Shown: piece by piece, positions 6,394-25,381 of the stretch
How positions within the stretch are numbered: the first letter of the stretch is position 1
Layout of the letters: every line of letters starts with the position of its first letter
Source: Flavobacterium sp. CFS9
GTDB lineage: Bacteria; Bacteroidota; Bacteroidia; Flavobacteriales; Flavobacteriaceae
Assembly (NCBI RefSeq): GCF_041154745.1
Contig: NZ_AP031573.1
Coordinates: 1,116,001-1,180,000, forward strand
Direction of reading: 5' to 3'
Length of the DNA: 64,000 nt
Notes under the pieces: generated by a model
Told to the model about the DNA's origin: nothing
Databases searched by the model: none
The model's input: only the letters and a program-made list of their open reading frames with translations
Translations under genes and position numbers: made by a program

Positions 6394-7177
6394 TACTTTT
6401 AAGCTTTGATTTTAAATTCTTGATATAAAATTTAAAAAGTTCTGTATAAACAACTTTTACAAAGCCAAGCATATTGACTCCTTCAAATCCGAAGTTTATT
6501 ACGTACTTTATCAATGCGTAAATAGTTCTGACATGAGCTAAATGAGCATTAGAATTATAGGCAGAATTGGCTGCCATTCTATATTTTATAAGAGGTTCTT
6601 TTATATAAAAAAATGAATAACCATTTTTCATTAATTTCAACCAAAGATAAAAGTCTTCACATGCAATCAAATCAGAATCCTCATTAAAAATTACTAAATC
6701 AGAATATGAAATTAAAGTACTTGAAAGGGGGATTTGGTTTCTTTTAATCAGATCATTAATGTCATCTGTAGCCTTACGATTTGAAATTTTTTCACTAATA
6801 TTCTCACCAAAAAGTAATACATCAGAATAAACTAATTTTTTAGTCTGATCACTTTTGCCGTTTAAGATTGCTACTTGTGTTTCCAATTTATTAGAAAACC
6901 AAATGTCATCGTCATCACAAAATGCAATATAACTACCTGTAGCTTGCTTTAATCCATAATTTCTATTGATCGCAATGATACCATTATTATGATTTTGAAA
7001 ACATTTTATTTTTGCGCTTTTAAAGCTCTCTATATGAGTAAAAAAATCATAAGCAGAAAAATTATCAACGACAATTAATTCAAAATCCTGAAAAGTCTGA
7101 TTTAATATTGAATTTAATGTTTCCGCTAATAAATCTTTTCTATTATAAGTCGTTACGATTACACTAACAAGTGGCAT
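6386..7177 (-). CDS. Family 2 glycosyltransferase
   Basis: GT-A glycosyltransferase of 263 residues. Motifs: SVIVTTYNRKDLL at the start, a nucleotide-binding VDNFSAYDF, and the metal site FCDDDDIW (about 86-93). The second half, with CEDFYLWLKL, resembles the conserved ED-containing acceptor segment of family 2 enzymes. It lies between the SDR gene and wzy, so it most likely contributes one linkage of the same repeat unit. Substrate unknown. Confidence 0.87.
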   Translation of the reverse strand: MPLVSVIVTTYNRKDLLAETLNSILNQTFQDFELIVVDNFSAYDFFTHIESFKSAKIKCFQNHNNGIIAINRNYGLKQATGSYIAFCDDDDIWFSNKLETQVAILNGKSDQTKKLVYSDVLLFGENISEKISNRKATDDINDLIKRNQIPLSSTLISYSDLVIFNEDSDLIACEDFYLWLKLMKNGYSFFYIKEPLIKYRMAANSAYNSNAHLAHVRTIYALIKYVINFGFEGVNMLGFVKVVYTELFKFYIKNLKSKLKSNA

Positions 7178-7186
7178 ATTTATAAT

Positions 7187-8149
7187 TTATTTTTTAAACA
7201 TTGTTTTTTCTAAAAAATCGAAAAGATCATTTATTCCCATCTCTAAGCTCCATTTGGGTTCAAATCCAATTTGGCAAATCAAGCTGTTATCAATTTTATA
7301 TACTCTTTTTTCTGTGATATTATGGTTTGATTTTGCTTTCGTAATAACTAATTCAACATTATAGCGATCCAAATAGATTTTTTTTACTTTTTCAGCGATA
7401 TCCAAAATTGACAACGTTTTTCCAGAACTTAAATTATAAACAAAATGTTGTTTATTACTTGTTTCAACTACAGTCTGCACTCCACTACAAACATCCCAAC
7501 CATGAATAAAATCACGCAGAGGAGAACCATCTGACTGCAATACGATTTCTTTTTTTTTGTATGCCATTTGACATAAATCGTTTATAACCAACCACCAACA
7601 ATTATTTTCTTCAAACAATGGTGCTCCATAACTATTTGAAAGTCTAATTATGCTACAATCTACGGAAGATTTTCGATTGTAATAATCGCAAAGTACTTCC
7701 CCGATTTGATGAGTTAGCCCATAAGGATTTTGAGGTTTTAATGTTTGGTTTTCTAAAACGTGTTCATCTTGTAACGTTCCATAAATTTGTGCTGTAGAAA
7801 AATAAATAAATTTACTAAGACCCTGCTTAGAAAATATTTCCAATATGGACCAGACTGGTGTTATGTTAACTGAACTAACGAAAGTTGGAGATAAGTTAGA
7901 CTGATGATGATCTAAAGAAACAAGATGAATTACTATATCATAATTATCCTTAGCTAATTCTATTAGAAATAATTCATCTCTGACATCTCCAATTACAACT
8001 TTTTCCATCTTTGATACCCAATCCTGATTAGAAGGAATTTTTGAATGACAAAGAGATGTTACAGAATATCCTTCATTAGCAAAATGCAAGCACAGACGCC
8101 CTCCTATATATCCACTCCCGCCAGTAATGAGAATCTTTTTTTTTACCAT
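7187..8149 (-). CDS. NAD-dependent epimerase/dehydratase family protein, candidate CDP-sugar reductase
   Basis: Extended SDR of 320 residues with the Rossmann motif ITGGSGYIGGRL (about 7-18), a serine region STAQIYG and the active-site YGLTHQIGE, in which the usual YxxxK lysine position is occupied by a glutamine-containing stretch (Y-G-L-T-H). Its start overlaps the preceding cupin gene by 7 bases, and that gene is coupled to rfbG and rfbF. The likely job is the final C4 reduction of a CDP-4-keto-6-deoxyhexose. The departure from YxxxK is odd and makes catalysis uncertain; an epimerase-like or non-catalytic role remains possible. Confidence 0.72.
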   Translation of the reverse strand: MVKKKILITGGSGYIGGRLCLHFANEGYSVTSLCHSKIPSNQDWVSKMEKVVIGDVRDELFLIELAKDNYDIVIHLVSLDHHQSNLSPTFVSSVNITPVWSILEIFSKQGLSKFIYFSTAQIYGTLQDEHVLENQTLKPQNPYGLTHQIGEVLCDYYNRKSSVDCSIIRLSNSYGAPLFEENNCWWLVINDLCQMAYKKKEIVLQSDGSPLRDFIHGWDVCSGVQTVVETSNKQHFVYNLSSGKTLSILDIAEKVKKIYLDRYNVELVITKAKSNHNITEKRVYKIDNSLICQIGFEPKWSLEMGINDLFDFLEKTMFKK

Positions 8150-8586
8150 TGATATTTTATATCAGATAAGTTTTCTTTTCTTTCGATTTCATTTGGATCA
8201 TGTTCTATACTAGCTAAATTTAACAGCAAATTATATGATTTTCCTTTTCCACTGAAAGCGACCCAAACACCGGGAGGAATTGTAATTCTCTGGTAATTAT
8301 TATCTCCCAAAGTCACATCGAAAAAACAATTTTTAGTCATACTGTATTCTCTGTCATCGTAAATAACAAAACGAATTTCTCCAATTGGTACCACAAAATT
8401 CAAAGTCATATCAAAATGTTTCTTCCATGGTTTAGTATCTTCACTATTAATTGTAGAAAAATAAGCTTCTCCAAAACCAAAAAAACCAGGATCAGATTTT
8501 TTCATTCCATGAAATACATCACCCTTTGGATGATGTATTTTTTTTAGCGGGGTTAGTAAAACTCCGTCTACAATTATTTTGTCCAT
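8143..8586 (-). CDS. RmlC-like cupin epimerase, CDP-sugar cassette
   Basis: Cupin of 147 residues related to dTDP-4-dehydrorhamnose 3,5-epimerase. Visible features are HPKGDVFHGMKKSD (about 19-32), GEIRFVIYDDRE (about 89-100) and ITIPPGVWVAFSG (about 117-129). The gene overlaps rfbG upstream by 4 bases when measured from its ATG, and the SDR gene downstream. In this setting it should epimerise C3 and/or C5 of CDP-4-keto-6-deoxyglucose. Canonical RmlC is longer (about 180 residues), so this is a shortened relative and its regiochemistry is uncertain. Confidence 0.78.
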   Translation of the reverse strand: MDKIIVDGVLLTPLKKIHHPKGDVFHGMKKSDPGFFGFGEAYFSTINSEDTKPWKKHFDMTLNFVVPIGEIRFVIYDDREYSMTKNCFFDVTLGDNNYQRITIPPGVWVAFSGKGKSYNLLLNLASIEHDPNEIERKENLSDIKYQW

Positions 8587-9689
8587 GATATATTACCAAG
8601 TTTAGCTAAATCTTCGTATCCTTCAATCTGCGATTTTGTATAAGTAAACATATCAACATTATTCTTATAAAACTGATAATACCAATCGCTTGTATATTCA
8701 ATCAAAGTATTATAATCCAATGTTGGTTTCCACTGAAAATGAAATAAGGCTTTATCACAGTTTAATTTTAATAACCCTGCTTCATAAAATTTGATATCTC
8801 CTGTTACTTGATAAGCATCTTTAGAATTTTCGAAATGCCAACGTACACTCATATCTTCTAATATTTCCTGTACGGTATGATTATATTCCGGTTTTGGTCC
8901 AAAATTAAAACTTTCACCATTTAGAGAATGATCTTTATACAAACGTTCTCCTAATTGTAAGTATCCGCTAAGAGGTTCTAAAACGTGTTGCCAAGGTCTA
9001 GTTGCTTTAGGGCTTCTAATCTCTACTACTTTACCTTCGCTCCAAGATCTCATACAATCTGGTATAATTCTGTCTAATGCCCAATCTCCACCTCCTATTA
9101 CATTTCCAGCACGAGCTGAAGCTATCTGTACTTGCCCATCTTCTTTTTTGAAAAACGAATGATAATAAGATTTAAAAATCAATTCTGCTGCCCCCTTACT
9201 TCCACTGTAGATATCTTTACCTCCAACAGCATCAGTTTCTTTATAGCCATAAATCCATTCTACGTTATCGTAACATTTATCGCTTGTAATTATTATTGCT
9301 GTACAAGGTTTATCATATGCTCGCAAAACTTCAAGAACATTTGTAGTTCCCATTACATTAGTAGAAATTGTATCAACTGGCTCTGCATACGATAATGAAA
9401 CTATGGGCTGTGCTGCTAAATGAAATACAAAATCAGGTTTTACATCATTTATAATTTTTTTCATTGCATCCAAATCTCTAACATCAGCAAAAAAATGATT
9501 CATTTTATCCGTTAGCCCTAATTCAGCGAACATAGAAGGCTTTGTAGGAATTTCATTTGAAACACCATAAACATCAGCCCCTAAAGAAATTAACCAAGTA
9601 CATAACCATGATCCTTTAAAACCTGTGTTACCTGTAACTAAAATTTTTTTGTTACGATAAACATCTCCAAAGATTATTTTTTCTCCCAT
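8574..9689 (-). CDS. rfbG: CDP-glucose 4,6-dehydratase
   Basis: SDR-family dehydratase converting CDP-D-glucose to CDP-4-keto-6-deoxy-D-glucose in the cytosol. The Rossmann motif TGNTGFKGSWL, DVRDLDAM, ITSDKCYDN and the active site YSGSKGAAE identify the RfbG family. ATG at 9687-9689 gives 371 residues (MGEKIIFGDV). The open frame can be extended three codons to a GTG at 9698, which I consider less likely. The start lies inside the 3-prime end of rfbF, so the two enzymes of consecutive steps are tightly coupled. Confidence 0.94.
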   Translation of the reverse strand: MGEKIIFGDVYRNKKILVTGNTGFKGSWLCTWLISLGADVYGVSNEIPTKPSMFAELGLTDKMNHFFADVRDLDAMKKIINDVKPDFVFHLAAQPIVSLSYAEPVDTISTNVMGTTNVLEVLRAYDKPCTAIIITSDKCYDNVEWIYGYKETDAVGGKDIYSGSKGAAELIFKSYYHSFFKKEDGQVQIASARAGNVIGGGDWALDRIIPDCMRSWSEGKVVEIRSPKATRPWQHVLEPLSGYLQLGERLYKDHSLNGESFNFGPKPEYNHTVQEILEDMSVRWHFENSKDAYQVTGDIKFYEAGLLKLNCDKALFHFQWKPTLDYNTLIEYTSDWYYQFYKNNVDMFTYTKSQIEGYEDLAKLGNISWTK

Positions 9690-10471
9690 TTTACCCACGG
9701 TGCCTTACCGTTATTATAAAGTTCATTTAATAAAGTATATTCTCTTGAAGTATCCATCGGTTGCCAAAATCCGTCATGCTCAAAAACTTTTAATTCACCT
9801 AATTCTACAAGCTTTTTCATTGGCTCTTGCTCTAAAACTAAGTCTTCTGAATCACTTAGGATATCTAAAAACTCTCTGTTACATATGAAATATCCACCAT
9901 TAATTCTACCACCACTTGCCTGAGGTTTTTCGTTAAACCCTGTTATTGTTGATCCATCGTCTCCAATACCAAGTTCACCAAATCTTCCAGGTGGCCTAAC
10001 ACCAGTTAATGTTACCATTTTACCATGTGATTTATGAAAGGCTACCAGAGCATTAATATCAATATCTCCAACTCCATCCCCATATGTTAACATAAAATAA
10101 GGATCATCGCCAATATACTTTTTAATGCGACGTACTCTAGCTCCTGTCATTGCTTTAATACCTGTTTCTGCCAGAGTTATTTCCCAACCATCTTCATCAT
10201 GGCTTGTTTCAGAAATTATTTGTTCTGATTTTTTTCCTAATTTTATTGTTATATCTGAACTTCTAACTTCATAATTCAAGAAAAAATCTTTAATAACTTC
10301 ACTTTTGTATCCCATGCATAAAACAAAGTCATTGTAACCATAATGAGCATACGTTTTCATAATATGCCAGATTATAGGTTTTCCCCCAATTGGTATCATA
10401 GGCTTAGGTATGTCATCAGCGACATCTCGAATTCTTGTTCCGTATCCTCCACAGAGTATTACTGCTTTCAT
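9674..10471 (-). CDS. rfbF: Glucose-1-phosphate cytidylyltransferase
   Basis: Nucleotidyltransferase of 265 residues making CDP-glucose from CTP and glucose-1-phosphate, the first step towards CDP-6-deoxyhexoses. The N-terminus MKAVILCGGYGTRIRDVADD with the following KPMIPIGGKPIIWHIM is diagnostic for RfbF. YGDGVGDIDI provides the metal-binding aspartates and WQPMDTSREY closes the C-terminal part. It precedes rfbG with a 16-base overlap. No RfbH-type dehydrase occurs in the window, so the product is more likely a 6-deoxyhexose than a 3,6-dideoxyhexose. Confidence 0.95.
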   Translation of the reverse strand: MKAVILCGGYGTRIRDVADDIPKPMIPIGGKPIIWHIMKTYAHYGYNDFVLCMGYKSEVIKDFFLNYEVRSSDITIKLGKKSEQIISETSHDEDGWEITLAETGIKAMTGARVRRIKKYIGDDPYFMLTYGDGVGDIDINALVAFHKSHGKMVTLTGVRPPGRFGELGIGDDGSTITGFNEKPQASGGRINGGYFICNREFLDILSDSEDLVLEQEPMKKLVELGELKVFEHDGFWQPMDTSREYTLLNELYNNGKAPWVKWEKK

Positions 10472-14229: not shown

Positions 14230-15528
14230 CTATTTTGTTTTTGTCTTTAATAAGTTTAGAACAGCATCCGTTTTAAATTCTTTACTGATGTAGTCATTCA
14301 AAATAGTTAAATCTACAAATACTTTTTTTGTTAATATTTCTTCTAGTTCTTCTTCTGATCTTGCTACAGGAACTTTCTTTTCACTTCTGTCAAATGGTGC
14401 GACTGGATAAAATCCATCAATTAAAGTATCCTCAATTAGTGGCTCATATACTACATAATTAACCCCTTCAATTAATGCTTCTAAAAAAGTAGTCGAGGTT
14501 CCGCCAATTACTAAACTTGAATTAGTTAATGATGTCTTTAAATCATCCGTATCAAAAACAAAAAAATCTTTTTCGATATATTTATGATACCAATCAATAT
14601 TTTCACTCGGATGTGGTCTTAATCGTACTTTCTTCACGCCCAATTTCTCTAAGACTTTTTTAATTGATAACAGATAATAAATAAGATTACTACGATCTCC
14701 CACTATCAAACTATCACTAAACTGAGATCCGTTAAGCGATTTAGTAATAATAAGTATATTATCCAGTTCAAATCTTAAATTTTGGTCTAATGACAGACTG
14801 CTATATTTAGGATGTCCGTTTACAATAATTTTATCTGGATTTAGTCCTGCTTTTACAAAATTTTTTTTTATACTTTCTCCCCAGACTACTAAATAATCTG
14901 TTCTATTATAATCAATATCATTATAAATACCTGGTAGTCCATGTATGAAGTTAAAGGTTGGAAGATTTAATTCTTTAAAGACGTCTATTGCCATTTTTTC
15001 AAAGAATCCAATATCTTGTGGCAAAAAAAGCGCTTTAATATTATGCCTAACAACATATTCTTTAAAATCAAACTTATATCTTTTTGCTAATGAAATAAAA
15101 TCTGGTTTTAGCAAATCTTTAAAATCACCTGCCAACTTATGATTTAACTCAAAAGTTTGCTTAAAAAATGAATATTCAAAATACTTTTGATTTTTACCAA
15201 ATATCCAAGGTGGAGTAATAAGTAAATATTCATTTAGTTCTGAATTATTATTTAAATTAAAATATGCTGAAGATAAGATAACATCAATGTCTGTTTTCTT
15301 TTTAAAACAGGAAAATAAAAATGCATATATCTTGATTCCAAAATTGAATAACTTATCTTTTATTCTTTTTTTTAAATCTCTTTCATATTCATTTGGACTT
15401 TTAAACTGTGCCCCATATGAATATATCCTGTTATTTAGATTAAAGTGCAAATAATCAAAAAAGAGTTGATCATTCGCTTTTTCTTTATGTTCTTCATTCA
15501 AAAAATTCAACAATAAATTTCTTTTCAT
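14230..15528 (-). CDS. GT-B type transferase with HP motif, candidate nonulosonate or glycerophosphate transferase
   Basis: A 432-residue soluble protein whose C-terminal half looks like a nucleotide-sugar binding GT-B domain. Visible landmarks are FIHGLPG (about 195-201), VWGESIKKNF, NGHPKYSS (about 238-245), RLRPHPSEN (about 302-310) and GGTSTTFLEA (about 342-351). A histidine-proline motif followed by a serine/threonine-rich glycine motif also occurs in bacterial sialyltransferases, KpsC/KpsS Kdo transferases and CDP-glycerol transferases. Given the pseI cassette directly upstream, transfer of a CMP-nonulosonate is a reasonable inference. I cannot place it in a named GT family with certainty. 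Confidence 0.6.
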   Translation of the reverse strand: MKRNLLLNFLNEEHKEKANDQLFFDYLHFNLNNRIYSYGAQFKSPNEYERDLKKRIKDKLFNFGIKIYAFLFSCFKKKTDIDVILSSAYFNLNNNSELNEYLLITPPWIFGKNQKYFEYSFFKQTFELNHKLAGDFKDLLKPDFISLAKRYKFDFKEYVVRHNIKALFLPQDIGFFEKMAIDVFKELNLPTFNFIHGLPGIYNDIDYNRTDYLVVWGESIKKNFVKAGLNPDKIIVNGHPKYSSLSLDQNLRFELDNILIITKSLNGSQFSDSLIVGDRSNLIYYLLSIKKVLEKLGVKKVRLRPHPSENIDWYHKYIEKDFFVFDTDDLKTSLTNSSLVIGGTSTTFLEALIEGVNYVVYEPLIEDTLIDGFYPVAPFDRSEKKVPVARSEEELEEILTKKVFVDLTILNDYISKEFKTDAVLNLLKTKTK

Positions 15529-15532
15529 TGAT

Positions 15533-16093
15533 CTATCTATCTTTAATTTTTTTTGCAGGTACTCCTATCATTATTGAATTATCCTGCACATCTTTTGTAA
15601 CGACACTTCCCGCTGCAATAACAGATCCATTTGCAATTTTTACTCCTGGCAAAATCACACAATTTGCTCCAATCCAAACATCATCACCAATAAAAACATC
15701 TGTTCTGGTTTCATCCCAGCCTTGTCCATTAATATTTTCACCTTTTTTAATATTATGATTTGATGCAACAATTGTTACAAATTGCGAAATCAGGCAATTA
15801 TTTCCAATTGTTATTTCTCCTCCCGCAGCCCTAATATTGTTAAACTCTCCAATTGAAGTATTTTTACCTATTTTCAGTAGTCCCTTTTTACTAGAATGCC
15901 CAGAATTAATGGCATAAATAACAGTGAATGCTCCAATTACAACATCATTTGAAATATTTAAATTCTCTTTATTGTAATACAATTTAACTGTATTATCGAT
16001 TATTATATTCTTTTTGCTTAAGGCTCTATACTTAAAAATAAAAAATAAAATTTTATGATAAATTGATCCCAAAATATTTTTAATAACCTTCAT
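15533..16093 (-). CDS. Left-handed beta-helix (hexapeptide) O- or N-acetyltransferase
   Basis: Acyltransferase of 186 residues in the CatB/LacA/WbbJ class. From about residue 40 on it is made of hexapeptide turns; IGNNCLISQFVTIVASNHN carries the probable catalytic histidine, and IGDDVWIGANCVILPGVKI followed by VIAAGSVVTKDV is the classical coil of the family, ending in GVPAKKIK. Acetyl-CoA is the expected donor. It lies next to pseI, so the acceptor may be the nonulosonate or another sugar of the repeat. Confidence 0.85.
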   Translation of the reverse strand: MKVIKNILGSIYHKILFFIFKYRALSKKNIIIDNTVKLYYNKENLNISNDVVIGAFTVIYAINSGHSSKKGLLKIGKNTSIGEFNNIRAAGGEITIGNNCLISQFVTIVASNHNIKKGENINGQGWDETRTDVFIGDDVWIGANCVILPGVKIANGSVIAAGSVVTKDVQDNSIMIGVPAKKIKDR

Positions 16094-16108
16094 AATTGGT
16101 TTAAATTC

Positions 16109-17146
16109 TTAATCTATATTCTTATTATTCAATCTTTCACCTTTTGTCAAATCTACATTAATTACTTTCCCCAAAATATCGTTAAAATACTTAGGATGTA
16201 AGCCAAAACCAGGTCTAATGGATCGAACATTTTCCTCTGTTATTACGTCTCCAACTTTCATATCTTCCACAACATATAACGATCTTGAAAAATCTTTTCC
16301 TTTTGCCTGTTTTTCTGTTAAAGTGTAATCTACTACACCTATAGCACTTTCAGCTTCTCGAACTGCTTTTACCATTTCTGTAAATTCTTCTTCGTTCATA
16401 GAAAATGAAGCATCTGGTCCACCAATTGCTCTGTCTAAAATAAAATGTTTTTCTATAATTTTTGCACCAAAACAGGTTGCAACAATAGGAACTGTAACTC
16501 CCATAGTATGGTCAGATAATCCGCTTATAACTCCATATCTTTCAGATAAATCTTTTACCATACACATATTTGCCTCATTTATTGGAGCTGGATAACTTGA
16601 CGTACATTTTAACAATGCCAAATCATTATTCCCCATTCTTCGACATGCCTCTAAAGCTAATTCGATATCCTCTTGCTCAGCAATACCTGTAGAAAGAATA
16701 ATAGGTTTTCCTTTCGAAGCAACATACTCAATCAAAGGTATATCTGTAATTTCAAATGAAGCAATTTTATATGCGGGAACGTTCAACTCTTCAAGAAAAT
16801 CAACAGCCGTTTTATCAAATGGCGAAGAAAAACAAATCAATCCTTGTTTTTCGGCTTCAAGAAACAATTCTTTATGCCATTCCCATGGAGTATATGCCTC
16901 TTGGTAAAGTTTATGCAAATTTTGACCATCCCATATCGTACCTTTAATTATAAAATCATCTTTATCACAATCTATAGTCATTGTCTCAGCCGTATATGTT
17001 TGCAGCTTTATACAGTTCGCACCTGCACGCTTTGCTGCTCTAATAGTTTCTAATGCTGTTTCAAGACTACCATTATGATTTGCAGATAATTCAGCAATTA
17101 TAAAAACTGGTGATTCACTATTTATTTCTATATTTCCTAATTTCAT
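16109..17146 (-). CDS. pseI: Pseudaminic acid synthase
   Basis: NeuB-superfamily synthase of 345 residues condensing phosphoenolpyruvate with a 6-deoxy-diamino hexose to give a nonulosonic acid. N-terminal TIM barrel (FIIAELSANHNGS, KLQTYTAETMT, KIASFEITD, LKCTSSYPAP, GLSDHTMG, EKHFILDRA) and a C-terminal SAF/antifreeze-like domain (GDVITEENVRSIRPGFGLHP) are both complete. The insert IIKGTIWDGQNLHKLYQEA and YTPWEWH resembles Campylobacter PseI rather than sialic acid synthases, which favours pseudaminic-type stereochemistry. It closes the cassette that begins with pseB and pseC and follows the deacetylase gene by 7 bases. Confidence 0.92.
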   Translation of the reverse strand: MKLGNIEINSESPVFIIAELSANHNGSLETALETIRAAKRAGANCIKLQTYTAETMTIDCDKDDFIIKGTIWDGQNLHKLYQEAYTPWEWHKELFLEAEKQGLICFSSPFDKTAVDFLEELNVPAYKIASFEITDIPLIEYVASKGKPIILSTGIAEQEDIELALEACRRMGNNDLALLKCTSSYPAPINEANMCMVKDLSERYGVISGLSDHTMGVTVPIVATCFGAKIIEKHFILDRAIGGPDASFSMNEEEFTEMVKAVREAESAIGVVDYTLTEKQAKGKDFSRSLYVVEDMKVGDVITEENVRSIRPGFGLHPKYFNDILGKVINVDLTKGERLNNKNID

Positions 17147-17153
17147 TTTCTAA

Positions 17154-17864
17154 TTAATTTATTGATCTTACTAAACAAAAGGCTTCTGCGAAATTAGTCC
17201 CAATTGTAATTCCCCATCTTTGAGCTTGAATTTTCAATGCTTCTGGAGAACGAGGATGAGGATATTCTCGACGTTCAAATTCATAGCTTTCCATCCCCTT
17301 AATCTTTGCATTCAAATCACTTTCTGATACACTAAAAAATAAATTTGGCAAAAACTGACGTGGATCAGTTGGCGATCTCCACTCAGTACCAGAAGGAGTT
17401 TCAAAAGTTATAATAGTCTTAACTTTTTCGTCTTTCATTGGTCTACAAGCTGTAATTATAGACTCAAAAGTTCGCTGATGATCCACATTTACATCTCCTC
17501 CATGATGAGTAAAAATTACTTCTGGATTGAATTGTTTTTTCTCTTTTTCAACAGTCTTAATAATATCTAATAACGCTACTGAATCAAATCGATTATCAGG
17601 AAAATCATAAATACTAGTACTATGATAACCTATGGCCAATTGTGCTTTTTTTATATTATCTCTGTGAATTGCAAGTTCCCTTTCCCATGCTTTAATATCT
17701 CTACTATCCGCACGAGATGTTATTCCTTCTCCAAGAATAACGACATGAGTCTGTACATTATATTCATTTATTAATTTGTGAAATGTGGCACCCAATCCTA
17801 ATAATTCATCATCAGGATGGGCAACAACAATCATTATTTTTTTATTTCTTAAAAATTCTAACAT
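17154..17864 (-). CDS. PIG-L/LmbE family zinc-dependent N-deacetylase
   Basis: Deacetylase of 236 residues with the family's zinc motif AHPDDELLGLG (about 15-25) and the second metal-ligand segment HHGGDVNVDHQRT (about 119-131). PIG-L enzymes remove acetyl groups from N-acetylated amino sugars or related compounds. The gene overlaps the formyltransferase-like gene by 23 bases and precedes pseI by 7 bases, so the three are read together. The likely role is to strip an N-acetyl group from a pathway intermediate or product so that another acyl group can be put on; this is inference from context. Confidence 0.88.
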   Translation of the reverse strand: MLEFLRNKKIMIVVAHPDDELLGLGATFHKLINEYNVQTHVVILGEGITSRADSRDIKAWERELAIHRDNIKKAQLAIGYHSTSIYDFPDNRFDSVALLDIIKTVEKEKKQFNPEVIFTHHGGDVNVDHQRTFESIITACRPMKDEKVKTIITFETPSGTEWRSPTDPRQFLPNLFFSVSESDLNAKIKGMESYEFERREYPHPRSPEALKIQAQRWGITIGTNFAEAFCLVRSIN

Positions 17865-18525
17865 TGGCAGTAATTATTTTTTCAGTTTCATTAAAAATAG
17901 CTTTATCAAATTCAAACTTTAAACTGTCATTTTCAATAAAGGCTTTTGGATAACCTTCACAATCCAACATCCTTATATAATCATAAGTTTCTTCTAGGCT
18001 TGTCAATTCAATTATATTACTATCTTCTGGCTTTCTTCTTGTGAATTCTGTAACTTCACCAAATTGAGGGGTTGCAATTAGCTCCTTTTGTATAATATCA
18101 AAAATCATTTCCCTTATTATTAGAGAAGCTCTGGAAAATATTTCTTCAGCAGTCCCGTATAATTCAAGCGATTCTTTTAGATAAATATCTCCAGTGTCAA
18201 GGCCTTCTTCAACTCTTAAAGCTGATATTTTTGTTGATTTGTATCCTCTAACAATCAAATTTTGCAAAGGACTACCTCCTCTTCCGAAGGGTAAATCAGT
18301 CATATGAAATACTATACATTCATATTTCTCGTAAATTTCTTTTGGAATAATATGCGACCAGTGAGGAATAAAAATTTTAGATGGTTTAAATTTTTCTAAA
18401 TTATCTAAATTAAAATCGCTTTTTGAATCAATCAATAACCAATTTTCATTATTAAATGACTTTTTTAGATCATTAAAAAGATCTTTATGCCAGCTTTTTT
18501 CTGACAGAACAATATAGTTATTCAT
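17842..18525 (-). CDS. Formyltransferase-fold protein, probable sugar N-formyltransferase
   Basis: Protein of 227 residues related to the formyl-tetrahydrofolate-using fold of methionyl-tRNA and sugar formyltransferases. The core is VFHMTDLPFGRGGSPLQNLI (about 72-91) followed by TKISALRVEEGLDTGDIY (98-115). The catalytic histidine H74 and the LDTGD aspartate region (D110) are present. The asparagine normally two residues before the histidine is a valine (V72). It lacks the long tRNA-binding C-terminal domain. Set against a PIG-L deacetylase, a role in replacing N-acetyl by N-formyl on a nonulosonate or its precursor is the best hypothesis. Confidence 0.8.
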   Translation of the reverse strand: MNNYIVLSEKSWHKDLFNDLKKSFNNENWLLIDSKSDFNLDNLEKFKPSKIFIPHWSHIIPKEIYEKYECIVFHMTDLPFGRGGSPLQNLIVRGYKSTKISALRVEEGLDTGDIYLKESLELYGTAEEIFSRASLIIREMIFDIIQKELIATPQFGEVTEFTRRKPEDSNIIELTSLEETYDYIRMLDCEGYPKAFIENDSLKFEFDKAIFNETEKIITANVRIFKK

Positions 18526-18539
18526 AATCTCTTTTAATT

Positions 18540-19544
18540 TTAGTACTCAAAAAATAAAAAATCTTCATTATCTGATTTCAAAGTTTTGAATCCTAAATGA
18601 GTAAAAACTTTCGCAGAAGGGTAATTTTCTTTTTTTACTGTGGCTTTAAATTTAAAATTAAATTTATTCAAAAGATGTTTGACAATTTCTTTTCCCAAAC
18701 CTTGACCTCTATAAATATGATCAATCGAATAATCAATTTGCCACTGTGAACCAACTTTATCAATTCTAATTTGTCCAAAACATTTATTCTTATTACTTAG
18801 TATAAATATTTTTGTTTCTGAATCATTTATCTTTTTTTTAAACCAAGCTAAATGATTTTCCCAGATAATTTGGTCTTGTACAATAGAGTTCTTACGAACA
18901 TCTTGATCATTGGCCCAAATAAATAACAATTCAACATCATCTTCATTAGCCTCTCTTAAAAACAATTCATCTTTAACTATACTACTATCGAATTTACTAT
19001 GTATAACGACATCAATAAAACCACCATCAAAAAAGCAATGTTCTGTCAAAACTGCCTCTTTCTTATACCCCTTATCTTCAAGCATTTCATATAAATGAGG
19101 TCTTAGGTCAAATGCATAAGTATATATCTTATGAAGGTTTATTTCATTAAAAGCAAAAGTTTCAATTAACCCTAAATAAATGCTCCAATATCTTTTAAAA
19201 TTATTCTTTTGTAATTCGGTATTCATTACAAAAGAGATTTCAGCATTTTTATCATTCCAATTAATATGGACCAATCCTCCATAACCAATGCAAATCTCAT
19301 TCTCCAAAAAAGAAAACAAAATTTGATCTGGTTTACTTTGATCAAAAAGCTTTGCAACTATATTTTCAAAATAATAATTTTGATCATCAATAGTTAACAG
19401 TTTAACTTGACGCAAATGATAGATTTGTTCATTACGCCACTTCATAATGTCCATACGATCCTCAAACCGAATCGGAACAATCGAATAATTATCGTCTGAA
19501 AATATTTGTTTCTGAAATGCCTTATATGAATTCATCTTTATCAT
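18540..19544 (-). CDS. Tandem GNAT-fold acetyltransferase, candidate PseH function
   Basis: A 334-residue protein that reads as two GNAT domains in a row. Residues about 15-165 form the first (IVPIRFEDRMDIMKWRN at its start), but no clear acetyl-CoA loop is seen there. Residues about 170-334 form the second, with the loop YRGQGLGKEIVKHLL (about 287-301) and the usual SAKVFTHLGFK end. The second domain is the probable catalytic one. In the standard pathway PseH, also a GNAT, acetylates the 4-amino group after PseC. This gene fills that slot by position. Start is ambiguous between ATG at 19544 and ATG at 19535. Confidence 0.75.
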   Translation of the reverse strand: MIKMNSYKAFQKQIFSDDNYSIVPIRFEDRMDIMKWRNEQIYHLRQVKLLTIDDQNYYFENIVAKLFDQSKPDQILFSFLENEICIGYGGLVHINWNDKNAEISFVMNTELQKNNFKRYWSIYLGLIETFAFNEINLHKIYTYAFDLRPHLYEMLEDKGYKKEAVLTEHCFFDGGFIDVVIHSKFDSSIVKDELFLREANEDDVELLFIWANDQDVRKNSIVQDQIIWENHLAWFKKKINDSETKIFILSNKNKCFGQIRIDKVGSQWQIDYSIDHIYRGQGLGKEIVKHLLNKFNFKFKATVKKENYPSAKVFTHLGFKTLKSDNEDFLFFEY

Positions 19545-20855
19545 TTAATTCAATCTTTTAAAGCCACCATGGCATACGGGGCCGTTTAAAAGATCTTGAA
19601 TTTTCAAATCTCCTTTCTCACACTTTGATATTGAACTATACACTTCATCAAGAGCATTAAAATAGGATTCTAAATGAGCCTCTGTTTGTGCTGTTGATGC
19701 ATAAAAGTTAGTACTTGCTAAAAATCCTTTATCCAACATTTCCTGAGCAATAAATGTTTTATAGGAAAGAGCATCAGGGCTATTAAAGCTGTAAGTACTC
19801 AAAGCTGGAATTCCAGAAATAGAAATGTTTAATTTATATGAATCGGCCAATCTCTGCCAACCGTTACGCATTTTATTCCCAGTTGCTGTAATGATTTCCC
19901 AAGATTTTACTTCTTCCATCACTTTTAACGTAGCTAAGGCTGCTGTTGATCCAATTCTTTCAGTCCAAAATGTACTACTAATAAAAGTATTTTGGGCAGC
20001 TTCCATAACTTCTCTTTTACCTACAACAGCAGTTAGAGCATATCCGTTTCCAATTGTTTTTCCATACATTGCAATATCAGGTTCAACTCCAAATTTTTGA
20101 TAAATTCCCCCAAAAGTTTCCCTAAATCCAGAGGTACATTCATCAAAGATTAAAACAATATTTCTTTCTGTTGCAAGATTTCTAACTTTCTGTAAAAAAT
20201 TATCTTCTGGTCCAAAATTTCTGAGAACTTCCATTTTGATTACACCAATTTCATTGTTATTAACTATTGAAAGTAATTCCTCGAAATTGTTATAATTAAA
20301 TGGATAAACAGTATCTTTTAAATTTTTCGGCACTCCTTTAGGGCTTAAACCTGCAAGCAAATGTCCAGATAAATCATCACCACCATCATTATGATTTGCT
20401 GACAAATACCAATCATGCCATCCGTGGTAACCACAAATAGCTACTTTATCTTTACCAGAAGCTGCACGAGCTATACGAATTGCTATTGAATTTGCTTCAC
20501 CACCACTCCTAGCAAAACGGACCATATCAGCCCATGGATTTAATTCAACTAATTTTTCAGCTAAATAAACTTCCTCAGGACAATTAAGAGTCGTCATGTT
20601 TCCTTTTTTTACAGTTTCCAAAACGGCATTATCAACTTCATCATTACCATATCCAAGTGTATTGGTTCCAATACCCATTATTGACATATCTAAAAGTTCT
20701 TTTCCGTCTAAATCCCATATTTTACAACCTTTTGCTTTTGAAAAATAAGATGGCCATAAATCTGGTAAAAACATTTCCGGTCTTTTAGATAACAACATTG
20801 TACCACCTGGTATTAATGTTTTAGCTTTCTTATATAATTCTTGTCCTGTTCCCAT
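19545..20855 (-). CDS. Class III (HemL-like) aminotransferase of the nonulosonate cassette
   Basis: PLP enzyme of 436 residues resembling glutamate-1-semialdehyde 2,1-aminomutase. Features: RFARSGGEANSIAIRIAR (about 113-130), GYHGWHDWY (142-150), LIFDECTSGFRE (235-246, D238 for the pyridine nitrogen) and the Schiff-base lysine K266 in MYGKTIGNGYAL. It is not the housekeeping HemL: it is packed between an SpsF-type gene (1-base overlap) and the tandem GNAT gene and lacks the usual HemL N-terminus. HemL-like enzymes are recurrent companions of nonulosonate genes, probably aminating a keto intermediate. The substrate is not known. Confidence 0.82.
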   Translation of the reverse strand: MGTGQELYKKAKTLIPGGTMLLSKRPEMFLPDLWPSYFSKAKGCKIWDLDGKELLDMSIMGIGTNTLGYGNDEVDNAVLETVKKGNMTTLNCPEEVYLAEKLVELNPWADMVRFARSGGEANSIAIRIARAASGKDKVAICGYHGWHDWYLSANHNDGGDDLSGHLLAGLSPKGVPKNLKDTVYPFNYNNFEELLSIVNNNEIGVIKMEVLRNFGPEDNFLQKVRNLATERNIVLIFDECTSGFRETFGGIYQKFGVEPDIAMYGKTIGNGYALTAVVGKREVMEAAQNTFISSTFWTERIGSTAALATLKVMEEVKSWEIITATGNKMRNGWQRLADSYKLNISISGIPALSTYSFNSPDALSYKTFIAQEMLDKGFLASTNFYASTAQTEAHLESYFNALDEVYSSISKCEKGDLKIQDLLNGPVCHGGFKRLN

Positions 20856-21616
20856 TATATATCTTTTTTTAATGACTTTAATAATCCTTCGTTTCTTATA
20901 ATTTCACCATTTATTCTGGTCAAATCATTTTCAATAATGTAATTCGTATATTCACTCCAAGATTTATCTGTGCCTAATTCCTTTACAAGTATTTCAATTA
21001 AATCAAAATCTCTCTTTTCATCAACAGTCATTCTAATATTAGAAAAATCTGAATTACAAGCATAATTAATAGACGAAAATAAATGTCCACCATTAAAATC
21101 TGAGTTATTTCTAATATAAGGTGTAACATGTTCTCTTTCAGAAAGCAATTTAGCTTCTTTCCATGCTTTTTCTAATGCTGAAAATTTAAATACTTCTATA
21201 TCCTGTCCATCTGGAAAATTTTCTATTAAAATATTTGAACCATAGTCTTTATCATTTTCTTGCACAAATGATATCACTTTATCAACCAAATTTGGATCTA
21301 TAAGTGGACAGTCCGATGTTACACGCACAATCCAATCAGGTTTATCAATCTTTACTGACTGATAAAATCTATCTAGTACATCAGATTCAGACCCTCTAAA
21401 GGATTCATATCCCCATTCTCTGGCTTTATTGTAAATTATAGCATCCGCATCAACAATAGTTGTAGCAACAATTATTTTAGAAACTTTAGAGCTTTTTTTT
21501 AATCTATCCAGGTGAATTTGAAGTAATGATTCCCCATTTATTTCCTTTAACACTTTTCCAGGCAGTCTTGTACTTCCTAATCTAGCCTGTGTAATTAATA
21601 TTGTTTTTATTTCCAT
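20855..21616 (-). CDS. SpsF-type cytidylyltransferase, probable CMP-nonulosonate synthetase
   Basis: GT-A-like nucleotidyltransferase of 253 residues of the SpsF family, which couples nonulosonic acids to CMP or acts in their activation in Bacillus-type sps operons. The N-terminus ILITQARLGSTRLPGKVL (about 6-23) holds the nucleotide loop, and VRVTSDCPLIDP (about 98-109) and MTVDEKRDFDLI (about 197-208) are typical of the family. It overlaps the aldo/keto reductase gene by 10 bases and the class III aminotransferase gene by 1 base. It stands in the place of PseF, which has a different N-terminal sequence in Campylobacter. Confidence 0.82.
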   Translation of the reverse strand: MEIKTILITQARLGSTRLPGKVLKEINGESLLQIHLDRLKKSSKVSKIIVATTIVDADAIIYNKAREWGYESFRGSESDVLDRFYQSVKIDKPDWIVRVTSDCPLIDPNLVDKVISFVQENDKDYGSNILIENFPDGQDIEVFKFSALEKAWKEAKLLSEREHVTPYIRNNSDFNGGHLFSSINYACNSDFSNIRMTVDEKRDFDLIEILVKELGTDKSWSEYTNYIIENDLTRINGEIIRNEGLLKSLKKDI

Positions 21617-22470
21617 AAGGATGGATTTAGCAAATCTAAATCTTTAACTTTTATAGCATTGATTTTATCTAAAAGATCTTGATTCAGATTATAATTTAGA
21701 GCATTTAAATTATCTGTAAGTTGTTCTGGAGAATCTACTCCAATTAAAACTTCATCAATTAATTTATTATTTAGACAATAGCTTAACGCTAGACTGGAAA
21801 GATTAATATTTTCAAGTTTAGCAAAATCTTTAATAGCAAGTAATTCTGATGATAGTTTTTGAGAGATAATGTTATCAAAGTTTTCTTTAAAAAATAATCC
21901 TTGCAAAAAAGCAGATCTTGTATGAATTATTTTTCCTTTTTTCTTTAAAGCTTCCATTACTCCACCACGTATTGAAGTATTATCGAGTAAATTAAATGGC
22001 ATCTGTACAACTGTTATGCTATCATCTGACAATAATGATTCTATTTGTTCATTTGTATAAACAGAGACTCCGATATGATTAATAATTCCAATCTTTTTAA
22101 ATTCATTTAAAACCGAAATACATTCTTTATTATTTAAGTATGACTCAAACGAATGAAACATTAAAACATCTAAAAATTTTACGTGTAATTCCTCCAAATA
22201 AGTGTTTACTTTATATTCAATATCTTTAATATCACCGTGAGGAATCTTAGTAATGATATTAAATATTAAATTGGGGTTTAATTTATGAAAATCGCCTATA
22301 ACCTTATGAGCATCTCCATAAGCTTCCGCTGTATCTAAAGTACGAACACCCAAATCAAAAGCCTTATTTAAGATCTGACAACTAGTTTCAAAACTTAATT
22401 TACCGTTGGTATTATTAATACCATAATTTAGGCCCATTTGAACCGTTCCTAATATTAATTTATTATTCAA
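21607..22470 (-). CDS. Aldo/keto reductase of the nonulosonate cassette
   Basis: NAD(P)H-dependent reductase of 287 residues with a TIM-barrel AKR sequence. The full catalytic tetrad is visible: D46 and Y51 in RTLDTAEAYG, K75 in ITKIP and H106 in LMFHSFE. Near the C-terminus ALSYCLNNKLIDEVLIGV is the usual cofactor-side segment. Its position between pseC and the SpsF-type gene implies oxidation or reduction of a sugar or nonulosonate hydroxyl, perhaps making the keto group used by the class III aminotransferase. This coupling is an inference from gene order. Confidence 0.85.
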   Translation of the reverse strand: MNNKLILGTVQMGLNYGINNTNGKLSFETSCQILNKAFDLGVRTLDTAEAYGDAHKVIGDFHKLNPNLIFNIITKIPHGDIKDIEYKVNTYLEELHVKFLDVLMFHSFESYLNNKECISVLNEFKKIGIINHIGVSVYTNEQIESLLSDDSITVVQMPFNLLDNTSIRGGVMEALKKKGKIIHTRSAFLQGLFFKENFDNIISQKLSSELLAIKDFAKLENINLSSLALSYCLNNKLIDEVLIGVDSPEQLTDNLNALNYNLNQDLLDKINAIKVKDLDLLNPSLWK

Positions 22471-22503
22471 TTTACAAAATATTAAAAATCTGTATTTTAT
22501 TAC

Positions 22504-23168
22504 CTACTTATAGCTGGCATTAATATCTTTTTTGAGTAATGAGATAACTATATTTATCAAAATAATTATCTGTTGCATCCAGTATTTTTCTGAATGATTC
22601 CAGATATATTTATCAAGAAGGTAATATAGTTTTGAGGAAGTAAAAATTTCATCATAGTTTTGCTTAAATGAAAACGTAGTAAACTCATTAATATACTTGT
22701 ATATATTTCTAAAAGATTTTTCCAATAAAAAATCAACAATTACAGGAATTTCCCTATTTTTTTTTAAAACTCTATCGATTTCAGAAATAACTTTAAACAA
22801 AATATCTCGATCTATAACATAAAAACAAATCCAACGATGACTATATCAATAAATTTATCTTCAAAGGCATATAATTTATCTCCCGTGCCATGTATAAAAT
22901 ATACATCAGAAAAATGTTCTACCTCATACTTTATAGCATTCTTGAAGGATCAATTCCATAAACCTCACAACTACTATAGATAGACTTTAAAGCATTTATT
23001 CGATATCCTGCTGAAAATCCAATTTAAAGAATTTTATCCGGATTAAGATTATATTCTTTTATCAGAGTAATAACCCGGTCACGTTGAAAGGTATATTTTT
23101 CAATAACTTAGCGATTTCTTACAAACCAAGCATATGCCTTACTAGCAAGAAACGATTCTTTCTGATTA
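22504..23168 (-). pseudogene. Decayed SAM-dependent methyltransferase
   Basis: Between pseC and the aldo/keto reductase lies a broken class I methyltransferase. Reading minus from about 23168, the frame gives NKNNQKESFLASKAYAWFVR and stops at 23108-23110. In the same frame it continues with FQRDRVITLIKEYNL and stops again at 23024-23026, then IGFSAGYRINALKS (SAM motif I) and EVYGIDPS. A frameshift near 22930 moves to a frame reading VEHFSDVYFIHGTGDKLYAF. A second shift near 22815 leads into the still open last part of 98 codons (22504-22800, ISEIDRVLKKNREIP). Two in-frame stops and two shifts make a functional product very unlikely. The remaining downstream part has no ATG of its own at the start. 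Confidence 0.85.
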
Positions 23169-23171
23169 TTT

Positions 23172-24368
23172 TTATTCAAAATAAGAGTTTATAATCTTTA
23201 TTACAAATTCTTGTTCTTCCTCTGTTAATGTTGGATACATCGGTAAACTGATGCAATCTTTATAATACTGTTCAGCAAATGGCATATCACCTTCTTTCCA
23301 TCCAAATTGCTTATAATATGGCATAAGATGACATGGAATATAATGAATCTGAGCAAATATGTTATTTTTTCTAAGATAATTATAAAGTCCTAATCTATCA
23401 TCAACTTCAATTATATATAAATGATAAGCATGTCCTTCTACTACACCAGATTGTCCTTTAATGAAACTTTTATTAATGAAAGCTTTATTGTAATTTGTTG
23501 CAATTTCACGTCTTTTTGCAATCCCATCATTAGCTCTTTCTAGTTGACTTAATCCTAATGCAGCTTGAAAGTCGGTTAATCGATAGTTAAATCCTAAGGT
23601 CTGCATTTCCATATACCAGGAAGGATAAACTATTTCTTCTGTTTCAAATCCATTAGCAAATTTTGTAGAATTAACATATTCTCCTTCATTTTTTGTAATT
23701 CCATGTGTACGCAGGGCTAGAAGTTTTTTATACAACTTTTCATCATTAGTTGTAATCATACCACCTTCACCACATGCAATGTGTTTTACAGGATGAAAAG
23801 AAAATATTGCCAGATCAGCAAAATTACCATTTCCGCAATTTTCTAGTATATTCTTAGAATTTAAAAATGCTCCGCCTGGTGCATGACAAGCATCTTCAAT
23901 AATCCATAAGCCAAATTCATCAGCTAATTTTCTAAAAGCTTCCAGATCTACCGCTCTTCCGGCAAAATCAACAGGAATAATCCCTTTGTATGTTCCTTTT
24001 GGAGAAGACTCCAATAACGATCTAACTTTATTGATATCTAAAAGATAAGTATTTGGATCAATATCAGAAAATATCACTTCTCCTCCACAATACCGAACAC
24101 AATTTGCAGATGCTGCAAAAGTAATAGGTGTAGTAATTACTTTATCGCCTTCCTTAACACCTAAAGCTAATGCACATAGATGCAAAGCTGCAGTCCCATT
24201 AGAAACTGCCACTGCAAATTTACTTCCGATATAATTTGCAAATGCATGCTCAAACTCAGATATTTTTGGTCCTTGTGTTAAATACTCAGATTTTAATGCT
24301 TCAATTACAACATTAATATCTTCTTCAGTAATATTTTGACGACCGTATGGTATGATATTCTGTCCCAT
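23172..24368 (-). CDS. pseC: UDP-4-amino-4,6-dideoxy-N-acetyl-altrosamine transaminase
   Basis: DegT-family aminotransferase of 398 residues that aminates C4 of the PseB product using glutamate. Features: VSNGTAALHLCALALG (about 56-70, cofactor phosphate), WIIEDACHAPGG (155-166) and the Schiff-base lysine K195 in FSFHPVKHIACGEGGM. The HPVK form with GEGGM is the PseC version of the motif. Its ATG overlaps the stop of pseB by one base, so both steps are translationally linked. Length fits characterised PseC enzymes. Confidence 0.94.
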   Translation of the reverse strand: MGQNIIPYGRQNITEEDINVVIEALKSEYLTQGPKISEFEHAFANYIGSKFAVAVSNGTAALHLCALALGVKEGDKVITTPITFAASANCVRYCGGEVIFSDIDPNTYLLDINKVRSLLESSPKGTYKGIIPVDFAGRAVDLEAFRKLADEFGLWIIEDACHAPGGAFLNSKNILENCGNGNFADLAIFSFHPVKHIACGEGGMITTNDEKLYKKLLALRTHGITKNEGEYVNSTKFANGFETEEIVYPSWYMEMQTLGFNYRLTDFQAALGLSQLERANDGIAKRREIATNYNKAFINKSFIKGQSGVVEGHAYHLYIIEVDDRLGLYNYLRKNNIFAQIHYIPCHLMPYYKQFGWKEGDMPFAEQYYKDCISLPMYPTLTEEEQEFVIKIINSYFE

Positions 24369-25381
24369 TATATTTCAAAAGTTGGGTCTAAATGTTCTTT
24401 TATTAAAGTTCTCAAAGTATCTACCGTTTCCCATTCGGTATTTGTTCCTGAATTATAATTAAATCCTGGTTCCACTAATTTAGCATTAAATTTATCAACA
24501 AAATCACTTATATTAAAAGTAGGAACAGTAGGTAATATCGTATAATATTTTCCTAAATCATAAGTATAAAATGCATCTGAAGATGTGATCATTTCCTCAT
24601 GAATTTTTTCACCAGGCCTAATTCCAACAATATCCAAAGAACACTCGGGAGCAACTGCTTTAGCCACATCAACAATATTATAAGATGGAATTTTTGGGAT
24701 AAAGATTTCTCCTCCCCATGCATGCTCAATGGCATGCATCACCATGTCAACTCCTCCTTGAAGAGAGATATTAAATCTTGTCATTGTTGTGTCTGTAATA
24801 GGTAATTTTCCTTCAGATTTCTTCTTCATGAAGAATGGAATTACTGAACCATTAGATCCCATTACATTACCATAGCGTACGACTGAAAATTTAATCGGAT
24901 TCTCTCCCTTTATATTATTAGCTGCAACAAACAATTTATCGGAGGTTAGTTTTGTTGCACCATACAAATTAATAGGAGCACATGCTTTATCAGTTGACAG
25001 AGCAACTACATTTTTGACACTTGTTTGCAGGGCGGCATAAATTACATTTTGTGCCCCGCCAATATTAGTTTTAATACATTCGTCTGGATTATATTCCGCT
25101 AAATGGACATGTTTCATAGCGGCAGCATGAATAACAATATCAACACCTTGAAAAGCTCTTACCAATCTTTCTTGATCTCTTACATCACCAAGAAAAAAAC
25201 GTATTTGAGGATAATCTTTCTCCAAATATTCCTGAGCCATCTGAAATTGTTTTTGCTCATCTCTAGAAAGAATTATAAGTTTTTTTATATTAGGATGATT
25301 TTTAAAAATATGTGCAGTCAGTGCTTTCCCTAAAGAACCTGTACCTCCTGTAATCAAAATTGTTTTATTTTCAAGATTCAT
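24368..25381 (-). CDS. pseB: UDP-GlcNAc 4,6-dehydratase (inverting)
   Basis: SDR dehydratase of 337 residues that removes water from UDP-GlcNAc and inverts C5, giving the L-arabino 4-keto sugar that starts pseudaminic acid synthesis. The Rossmann motif ITGGTGSLGK (about 10-19), HAAAMKHVHLAEYNP (85-99), the active-site LSTDKA (T130, D131, K132) and NLYGATKL (Y140, K144) match the FlaA1/PseB family. It is the first gene of the nonulosonate cassette, 86 bases after the Wzz-like gene; no clear promoter is seen in that gap. Confidence 0.95.
   Translation of the reverse strand: MNLENKTILITGGTGSLGKALTAHIFKNHPNIKKLIILSRDEQKQFQMAQEYLEKDYPQIRFFLGDVRDQERLVRAFQGVDIVIHAAAMKHVHLAEYNPDECIKTNIGGAQNVIYAALQTSVKNVVALSTDKACAPINLYGATKLTSDKLFVAANNIKGENPIKFSVVRYGNVMGSNGSVIPFFMKKKSEGKLPITDTTMTRFNISLQGGVDMVMHAIEHAWGGEIFIPKIPSYNIVDVAKAVAPECSLDIVGIRPGEKIHEEMITSSDAFYTYDLGKYYTILPTVPTFNISDFVDKFNAKLVEPGFNYNSGTNTEWETVDTLRTLIKEHLDPTFEI

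Follow-up and report, generated by a model that had tools for sequence, protein, structure and literature searches.

Background

Pseudaminic acid (Pse) is made in CMP-activated form by the PseB-C-H-G-I-F pathway of Campylobacter and Helicobacter, in which PseG, the enzyme that frees the sugar from UDP, is a standard step and a marker gene by which the pathway is recognised. Here we analyse an operon in a 64,000-nucleotide stretch of Flavobacterium sp. CFS9 (contig NZ_AP031573.1, positions 1,116,001 to 1,180,000; "the window", in which positions are counted from the first nucleotide) that shares with this pathway PseB, PseC, PseI, a PseH-like domain and the operon logic, but belongs to a genome without PseG and has an SpsF-type cytidylyltransferase in place of PseF. 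It also adds an aldo/keto reductase (AKR), a class III aminotransferase, a formyltransferase, a PIG-L family protein and a domain here called GNAT-A. We propose, with a probability of roughly 55%, that the operon makes a CMP-activated C8-amino pseudaminic acid for a surface polysaccharide and that GNAT-A releases UDP in PseG's stead. From the sequences compared, the replacement of PseG by a GNAT-like protein seems a more surprising result than the triamino product.

Other described systems resemble parts of the locus. In prophages of Acinetobacter baumannii, EpaA, which combines CTP_transf_3 and Aldo_ket_red domains, acts with EpaB to convert Pse5Ac7Ac to 8ePse5Ac7Ac, according to capsule nuclear magnetic resonance data in the part of the report available to us (PMC12053666); there, as in the window, a cytidylyltransferase and an aldo/keto reductase accompany the Pse pathway. 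Unlike EpaA, the PF02348 and PF00248 proteins of the window are separate products of overlapping genes with an aminotransferase gene adjacent, and the predicted product is an 8-amino sugar rather than an 8-epimer. The nab cluster of Vibrio B9-25K2, a Pse cluster, lacks a NeuA homologue and encodes a bifunctional protein that is part SpsF-like, part aldo-keto reductase; it differs from the window in having PseG, with a dehydrogenase next, and the accessible portion of its description mentions no class III aminotransferase (PMC7371886). A sugar of the predicted kind occurs in the O-polysaccharide of Flexibacter (Tenacibaculum) maritimum, another member of the Flavobacteriaceae, with acyl groups that differ from those implied by the formyltransferase of the window (excerpted review, PMC3210612). 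Lastly, GNAT-A differs from the PseH (PDB 4ri1) and SpeG acetyltransferases in having no Q/RxxGxG/A loop and in being located where PseG is absent.

Results

A pseudaminic acid operon in a genome without PseG

All genes of the cassette were found as open reading frames (ORFs) on the minus strand at the coordinates given below. PseB (UDP-GlcNAc 4,6-dehydratase (inverting), 24368..25381), PseC (UDP-4-keto-sugar aminotransferase, 23172..24368) and PseI (pseudaminic acid synthase, 16109..17146) all score above the curated NCBIfam cut-offs, with 498.6 bits for TIGR03589 (cut-off 407.75), 460.8 bits for TIGR03588 (423.5) and 516.8 bits for TIGR03586 (340.25), respectively. A preliminary description of this DNA, made from the sequence alone, had reported the three genes as present and intact and PseG as missing from the window, and both statements stand. 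The genome, a single contig of 5.37 Mb that is 99.99% complete, was then searched whole: at E <= 0.001, TIGR03590 gave a single match of 20.6 bits, to an ORF that reads as MurG and adjoins an FtsW-like ORF, and a purpose-built PseG profile (A2) found no PseG at the same threshold. PF04101 matched four places in the genome, namely the MurG ORF, a 372-amino acid (aa) frame and, twice over, a single 808-aa UGT-like frame. The expectation of the preliminary description that UDP must be removed by something else is thus correct for this genome.

GNAT-A occupies the position of PseG

The recurrent gene order among relatives of the operon is PseB-PseC-AKR-SpsF-HemL-X-PseI, where HemL denotes the aminotransferase. 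In locus L030 HemL is followed by a free PseG (207.7 bits, cut-off 153.55), and L033-L036 and L045 have a PseG-PseH fusion as the next ORF after HemL. GNAT-A, either free or fused to PseH, lies between HemL and PseI in the window and in L031, L032, L041-L044 and L046. In the window it makes up residues 1-187 (18984..19544) of a 334-aa double-GNAT protein encoded at 18540-19544, which was missing from the earlier gene list.

Among 104 loci, a set that includes two pairs with identical PseI (L034/L087 and L035/L072) and six loci chosen for carrying GNAT-A (L145-L150), PseG is present in 38, GNAT-A in 22, both in none and neither in 44; for the 59 loci with PseI above 350 bits the counts are 31 with PseG, 22 with GNAT-A and six with neither. 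The pattern is sharpest in a sample of 395 Bacteroidota genomes, of which 57 have PseI (E 1e-100; 56 of them over the family cut-off) and nine have GNAT-A (E 1e-25). PseG was found in 48 of the 57 (E 0.001), and the nine without it are exactly the nine with GNAT-A. Six of these nine are independent of the GNAT-A profile, and the PseG search was done afterwards; counted by arrangement, with kinship ignored, so exact a split would arise by chance once in 25.8 million for the six and once in 9.0 billion for all nine. Both states occur within single genera: in that of the window one genome (G127) has PseG and six, including this one, have GNAT-A, and in genus g80 two (G224, G552) have PseG and one (G131) has GNAT-A. 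Twenty-two GNAT-A genomes, among them the present one, were searched whole without finding a PseG, and two weak profile matches (20.4 and 18.7 bits) read as WecB-like ORFs; the same search recovered all seven PseG control genomes at E 4e-97 or better, four of which had contributed rows to the PseG profile and three of which had not.

GNAT-A also fills the slot in operons that lack the amination genes. L145, L146 and L147, all from one genus, have the order PseB-PseC-PseF-GNAT-A-acyltransferase-PseI, without AKR or HemL, and their genomes (G143, G212 and G232) yielded no HemL relative at E 1e-80 and no PseG. PseF is above its cut-off in L145 and L147, the two tested, and was recognised in L146 by a purpose-built profile. 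The acyl gene beside GNAT-A differs among the three: L145 has a GNAT protein, L146 a fused PseH, and L147 an ORF that reads as formyltransferase-like. L146 thus has every known step of the pathway but PseG, and GNAT-A is the sole additional domain among its Pse genes. In L148 the AKR accompanies a fused SpsF-aminotransferase distant from HemL; L149 and L150 are further removed. Because of the 48/9 split with PseG and because the slot is filled in these module-free operons, GNAT-A is on sequence grounds the best candidate to substitute for PseG without being its orthologue.

These observations bear on three other explanations. The preliminary description had placed AKR, HemL and SpsF "in place of" PseG, and these genes do lie within the operon of a PseG-less genome; however, PseB, PseC, AKR, SpsF, PseG and PseI stand together in 21 of the 80 named HemL loci listed, and L145-L147 dispense with the three genes in genomes that also lack PseG, so that compensation by the module is scarcely credible. 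It is also very improbable that the locus is decaying, with PseG lost and no nonulosonate made. The interval between PseC and AKR does hold a broken gene (22504..23171), but the remaining genes of the operon are open, relatives have various ORFs or none at that place, and the PseG-less arrangement recurs throughout the 22 GNAT-A genomes. In a third explanation, which we consider unlikely, GNAT-A would acylate the 8-amino group or some other amine as acyl-CoA N-acyltransferases ordinarily do, and UDP would be removed by unrelated housekeeping activity, a Nudix enzyme plus a phosphatase. This leaves the 48/9 split unexplained; moreover, GNAT-A occurs without the amination module, always beside another acyl- or formyltransferase candidate, and its acetyl-CoA motif is gone (below).

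Several points weigh against GNAT-A as the replacement for PseG. The GNAT-A genome search scored the best eight first-look candidates per genome, and a distant second copy could therefore be missed. Outside the Bacteroidota sample, six of the 59 PseI loci have neither gene; whole-genome searches of 15 neither-type genomes (nine PseI-type, six NeuB-type, L116 of the six PseI loci lying outside this set) found no PseG in nine and PseG matches in six, four of them at 2e-13 or better. By title, 12 of the 15 are metagenome-assembled genomes (MAGs) or single cells, and two of the nine PseG-less ones (L075, L125) are isolates. That PseI comes with either PseG or GNAT-A is documented as a rule for the Bacteroidota sample only, and it is not absolute outside it. 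Loss of the P-loop motif is no proof of lost CoA binding, and, to our knowledge, hydrolysis is unprecedented for the GNAT fold. A search of the open-access literature found no paper linking a GNAT protein to the step of PseG.

Sequence and fold of the GNAT-A domain

GNAT-A has the GNAT fold, the VIA fold comparison of its model being a re-alignment of Foldseek's own ranking. Its sole NCBIfam match is TIGR03585 (PseH), at 27.9 bits, with no match to TIGR03590 (PseG); it would accordingly be a PseG by function, on present inference, and not a member of the PseG family. A sequence search also matched it to the PseH structure PDB 4ri1 (26.8 bits). In a profile-profile comparison the match to the PseH-like domains of the operons was not significant (probability 0.2%, E 0.25), which leaves the weak TIGR03585 match, the 4ri1 match and the fold as the basis for kinship with PseH; on these grounds GNAT-A appears to be distantly PseH-like. 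The motif [QRK]xxGx[GA], whose form Q/RxxGxG/A we take to be the acetyl-CoA P-loop of GNATs, is absent from all 74 rows of the GNAT-A alignment (A5), and a simple pattern found it in one of the 120 relatives listed. H43, R45, Y88, D98, E102 and R148 do not vary in this alignment.

The C-terminal half of the double-GNAT protein (18540..18983) presents a different picture, since in the alignment it keeps the P-loop as RGQGLG. The double-GNAT protein scores 61.8 bits against TIGR03585, below the cut-off of 93.1, with the best stretch at residues 197-323, and this half is best described from its sequence as a PseH-like N-acetyltransferase rather than a curated PseH. Among the 80 named loci listed, profiles recognise four GNAT-A-PseH fusions and 10 PseG-PseH fusions. 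The existing annotation of the GNAT-A proteins is "GNAT family N-acetyltransferase".

Probable repeated exchange of PseG and GNAT-A

In a 53-row PseI tree the PseG/GNAT-A label changes at least five times, three of the changes being forced by starred branches. A careful tree restricted to 27 Bacteroidota rows of this set, leaving out L098, L149, L150 and other phyla (among them the Chlorobi-type L033-L036), has three label changes; none of its 200 bootstrap trees needs one change only, and the 5-95% range is 3-3. Weighing on the other side, a single GNAT-A clade is not rejected by the approximately unbiased test at 5% (p 0.067). Replacement more than once, in either direction, is likely but not certain.

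An AKR-SpsF-HemL module that accompanies nonulosonate genes

The AKR gene (21607..22470, TTG start; PF00248, 136.2 bits), the SpsF gene (20855..21616; PF02348 (CTP_transf_3), 109.3 bits) and the gene for the HemL-like class III aminotransferase (19545..20855; PF00202) overlap by 10 bp and by 1 bp. The AKR keeps D46, Y51, K75 and H106, presumably the AKR catalytic tetrad, and the aminotransferase keeps K266, as the preliminary description had said. The latter protein is far below the HemL cut-offs (TIGR00713 193.3 against 527.3; NF004856 235.1 against 486). The cytidylyltransferase has no match to TIGR03584 (PseF). The genome encodes two more PF02348 proteins, of which NeuA2 scored 147.5 against the PseF cut-off of 205.7 in a TIGR03584 scan that covered NeuA2 and SpsF. 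The genes had been described as overlapping or abutting, which is true of these three but not of PseC and AKR, which are about 700 bp apart.

HemL relatives, counted with this genome included, occur in 3 of 60 family genomes searched at E 1e-40 and, at E 1e-80, in 12 of 296 genomes of the phylum and 5 of 101 of the genus; none was confirmed in viral contigs. The locus counts refer to 80 named HemL loci listed of 575 confirmed candidates, scored with purpose-built profiles and thresholds of our own. Of the 80, 64 have AKR, 66 SpsF, 47 PseC, 46 PseB, 44 PseI and 32 PseG. Fusions are common, with 45 of SpsF to HemL, two of SpsF to AKR (L085, L092) and one of a NeuA-type protein to AKR. The module accompanies nonulosonate genes and is not a PseG replacement, since it is found in PseG-bearing clusters.

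An alternative is that AKR, SpsF and the aminotransferase do not act on the nonulosonate, and that they supply the same polysaccharide with a separate CMP-linked component, either an amino acid or a sugar. Twelve of the 80 HemL loci listed, some of them short, have no other scored Pse or module gene over thresholds, and six loci (L058, L077, L102, L105, L113, L125) combine PseB, AKR, SpsF and HemL with NeuB, without PseC, PseG or GNAT-A over thresholds. Yet PseI or NeuB is present in 51 of the 62 named loci that have both AKR and SpsF, SpsF belongs to the nonulosonate/Kdo cytidylyltransferase family, and in A. baumannii an SpsF-AKR protein, EpaA, acts on Pse (available part of PMC12053666); we regard a separate sugar as rather improbable. 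The six NeuB loci imply that the module also occurs without the enzyme of the C7 amino group, and these clusters possibly make an 8-amino sugar that lacks it. In the four of them read in detail (L058, L077, L102, L125), an ORF that reads as an RmlD-like reductase precedes NeuB.

Two further contexts were observed among the relatives. Eight loci (L089, L100, L104, L106, L110, L114, L115, L117), from proteobacterial MAGs or single cells, have HemL-like relatives without AKR or SpsF, apparently in one common context as judged by ORF sizes. L031 has genes that read as HisF/HisH-like and PseA-like between HemL and GNAT-A (6676-9267), and L050 has three ORFs of similar size at that position, which suggests acetamidino tailoring.

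An 8-amino pseudaminate as the proposed product

Setting aside the anomeric position, Pse has free hydroxyls only at C4 and C8. With the aminotransferase adjoining the AKR, the simplest reading is therefore formation of a ketone at C8 followed by its amination. The cluster probably makes a pseudaminic-acid sugar with an extra amino group, and by analogy a triamino product aminated at C8 is the best reading. The preliminary description had suggested a redox step followed by amination to a triamino nonulosonate, and the EpaA precedent, the conserved and often fused module and a natural 8-amino sugar all favour this suggestion. That sugar, 8-amino-3,5,7,8,9-pentadeoxy-manno-nonulosonic acid, tentatively assigned as L, is a constituent of the lipopolysaccharide of Flexibacter maritimus (as F. 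maritimum is called there); it was reported in 2003, going by the review's reference list, and the portion of the review available has two versions of the placement of the N5 and N7 acyl groups (PMC3210612).

A number of observations count against this product. EpaA and EpaB epimerise C8, whereas amination is proposed here, so that C8 amination is an analogy, and the likeness to EpaA rests on domain families and not on a comparison with the EpaA sequence. These genes are not linked to the known 8-amino sugar: no T. maritimum cluster was found among the 80 named loci listed or the names shown for 120 relatives, most of which carry no species name, and none of the 12 matches in 393 genomes of the window's family was linked to T. 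maritimum, whose presence in that sample is uncertain. Papers on T. maritimum that were searched for O-antigen terms contained none of them. A second nonulosonate gene pair (L012, 1466-3196) lies in a neighbouring polysaccharide locus 17-19 kb past the left end of the window; its NeuB scores 404.3 bits (above 399.65), and its NeuA-type cytidylyltransferase, the NeuA2 mentioned above, stands at 147.5 bits for PseF (below 205.7). Given this nearby pair, CMP activation by SpsF is uncertain and possibly shared. No NeuC was recognised on reading the 20 kb listed around the pair, and no dedicated NeuC search was made. No cytidylyltransferase-AKR fusion of the EpaA type was recognised in phage records, and no paper in an open-access literature search tied the AKR-SpsF-HemL module to 8-amino nonulosonates or assigned genes to them.

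Remaining genes of the operon

Two more genes omitted from the earlier list lie between the double-GNAT gene and PseI: a formyltransferase-like protein (17842..18525; PF21553 and PF00551), with probable N-formyl tailoring, and a PIG-L family N-deacetylase (17154..17864; PF02585, 70.1 bits), also with a probable tailoring role. Beyond PseI are a hexapeptide-repeat acetyltransferase (15533..16093; PF00132, 62.1 bits), which may perform O-acetylation, and a 432-aa protein (14230..15528) with no Pfam match at 1e-5. The latter, whose strong relatives adjoin PseI in L030, L031, L041 and L071, all of them Pse loci, may represent a candidate nonulosonate transferase family.

The interval between PseC and AKR is filled by a decayed methyltransferase-like gene (22504..23171), which in a stop-to-stop reading has several in-frame stops and frame changes; a PseG hidden in the gap (22471-23171) is thereby ruled out. 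L041 has an intact 224-aa ORF at the same place (6951-7625) with matching stretches and weak matches to methyltransferase families, all those shown being below cut-off. L071 also has a 224-aa ORF at this place, a likeness of position and size only. Elsewhere in the window, at 8574-10471, are a CDP-glucose 4,6-dehydratase (TIGR02622, over cut-off) and an adjacent nucleotidyltransferase; with these two, the locus probably produces a CDP-linked 6-deoxy sugar as well.

Discussion

The enzyme families, the absence of PseG and the complementarity of GNAT-A and PseG are supported by sequence and gene order, and they can be combined into the following scheme. PseB and PseC would convert UDP-GlcNAc to UDP-4-amino-4,6-dideoxy-L-AltNAc, which would be acylated at N4 by the PseH-like half of the double-GNAT protein or by the formyltransferase. 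The GNAT-A half would bind the UDP-sugar and free the sugar instead of PseG, and PseI would condense the freed sugar with phosphoenolpyruvate. SpsF would activate the acid with CMP, and the AKR would turn the hydroxyl at C8 into a ketone for amination by the HemL-like enzyme; the formyltransferase and the PIG-L protein may later adjust the N-acyl groups. In this scheme we infer the hydrolysis by GNAT-A, the action at C8, the order of the last steps and the final product. For the domain itself, the evidence leaves us evenly balanced on a more general proposal: that GNAT-A is a GNAT-fold nucleotide-sugar hydrolase, distantly related or paralogous to PseH, in which the UDP-sugar site was kept and acetyl-CoA binding lost, and that it displaced PseG, or the reverse, more than once in Bacteroidota, in ordinary as well as 8-amino (triamino) pseudaminate operons. 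The original observation is confirmed, and its earlier interpretation is partly supported.

PseG-less genomes with a protein of another fold in the slot make the gap in the pathway directly testable. If GNAT-A does hydrolyse UDP-sugars, this would be a new job for its family and would add hydrolysis to the repertoire of the GNAT fold, and the annotation "GNAT family N-acetyltransferase" in surface-glycan loci of Bacteroidota would be corrected. The AKR-SpsF-aminotransferase module, for its part, provides a genetic handle on 8-amino nonulosonates.

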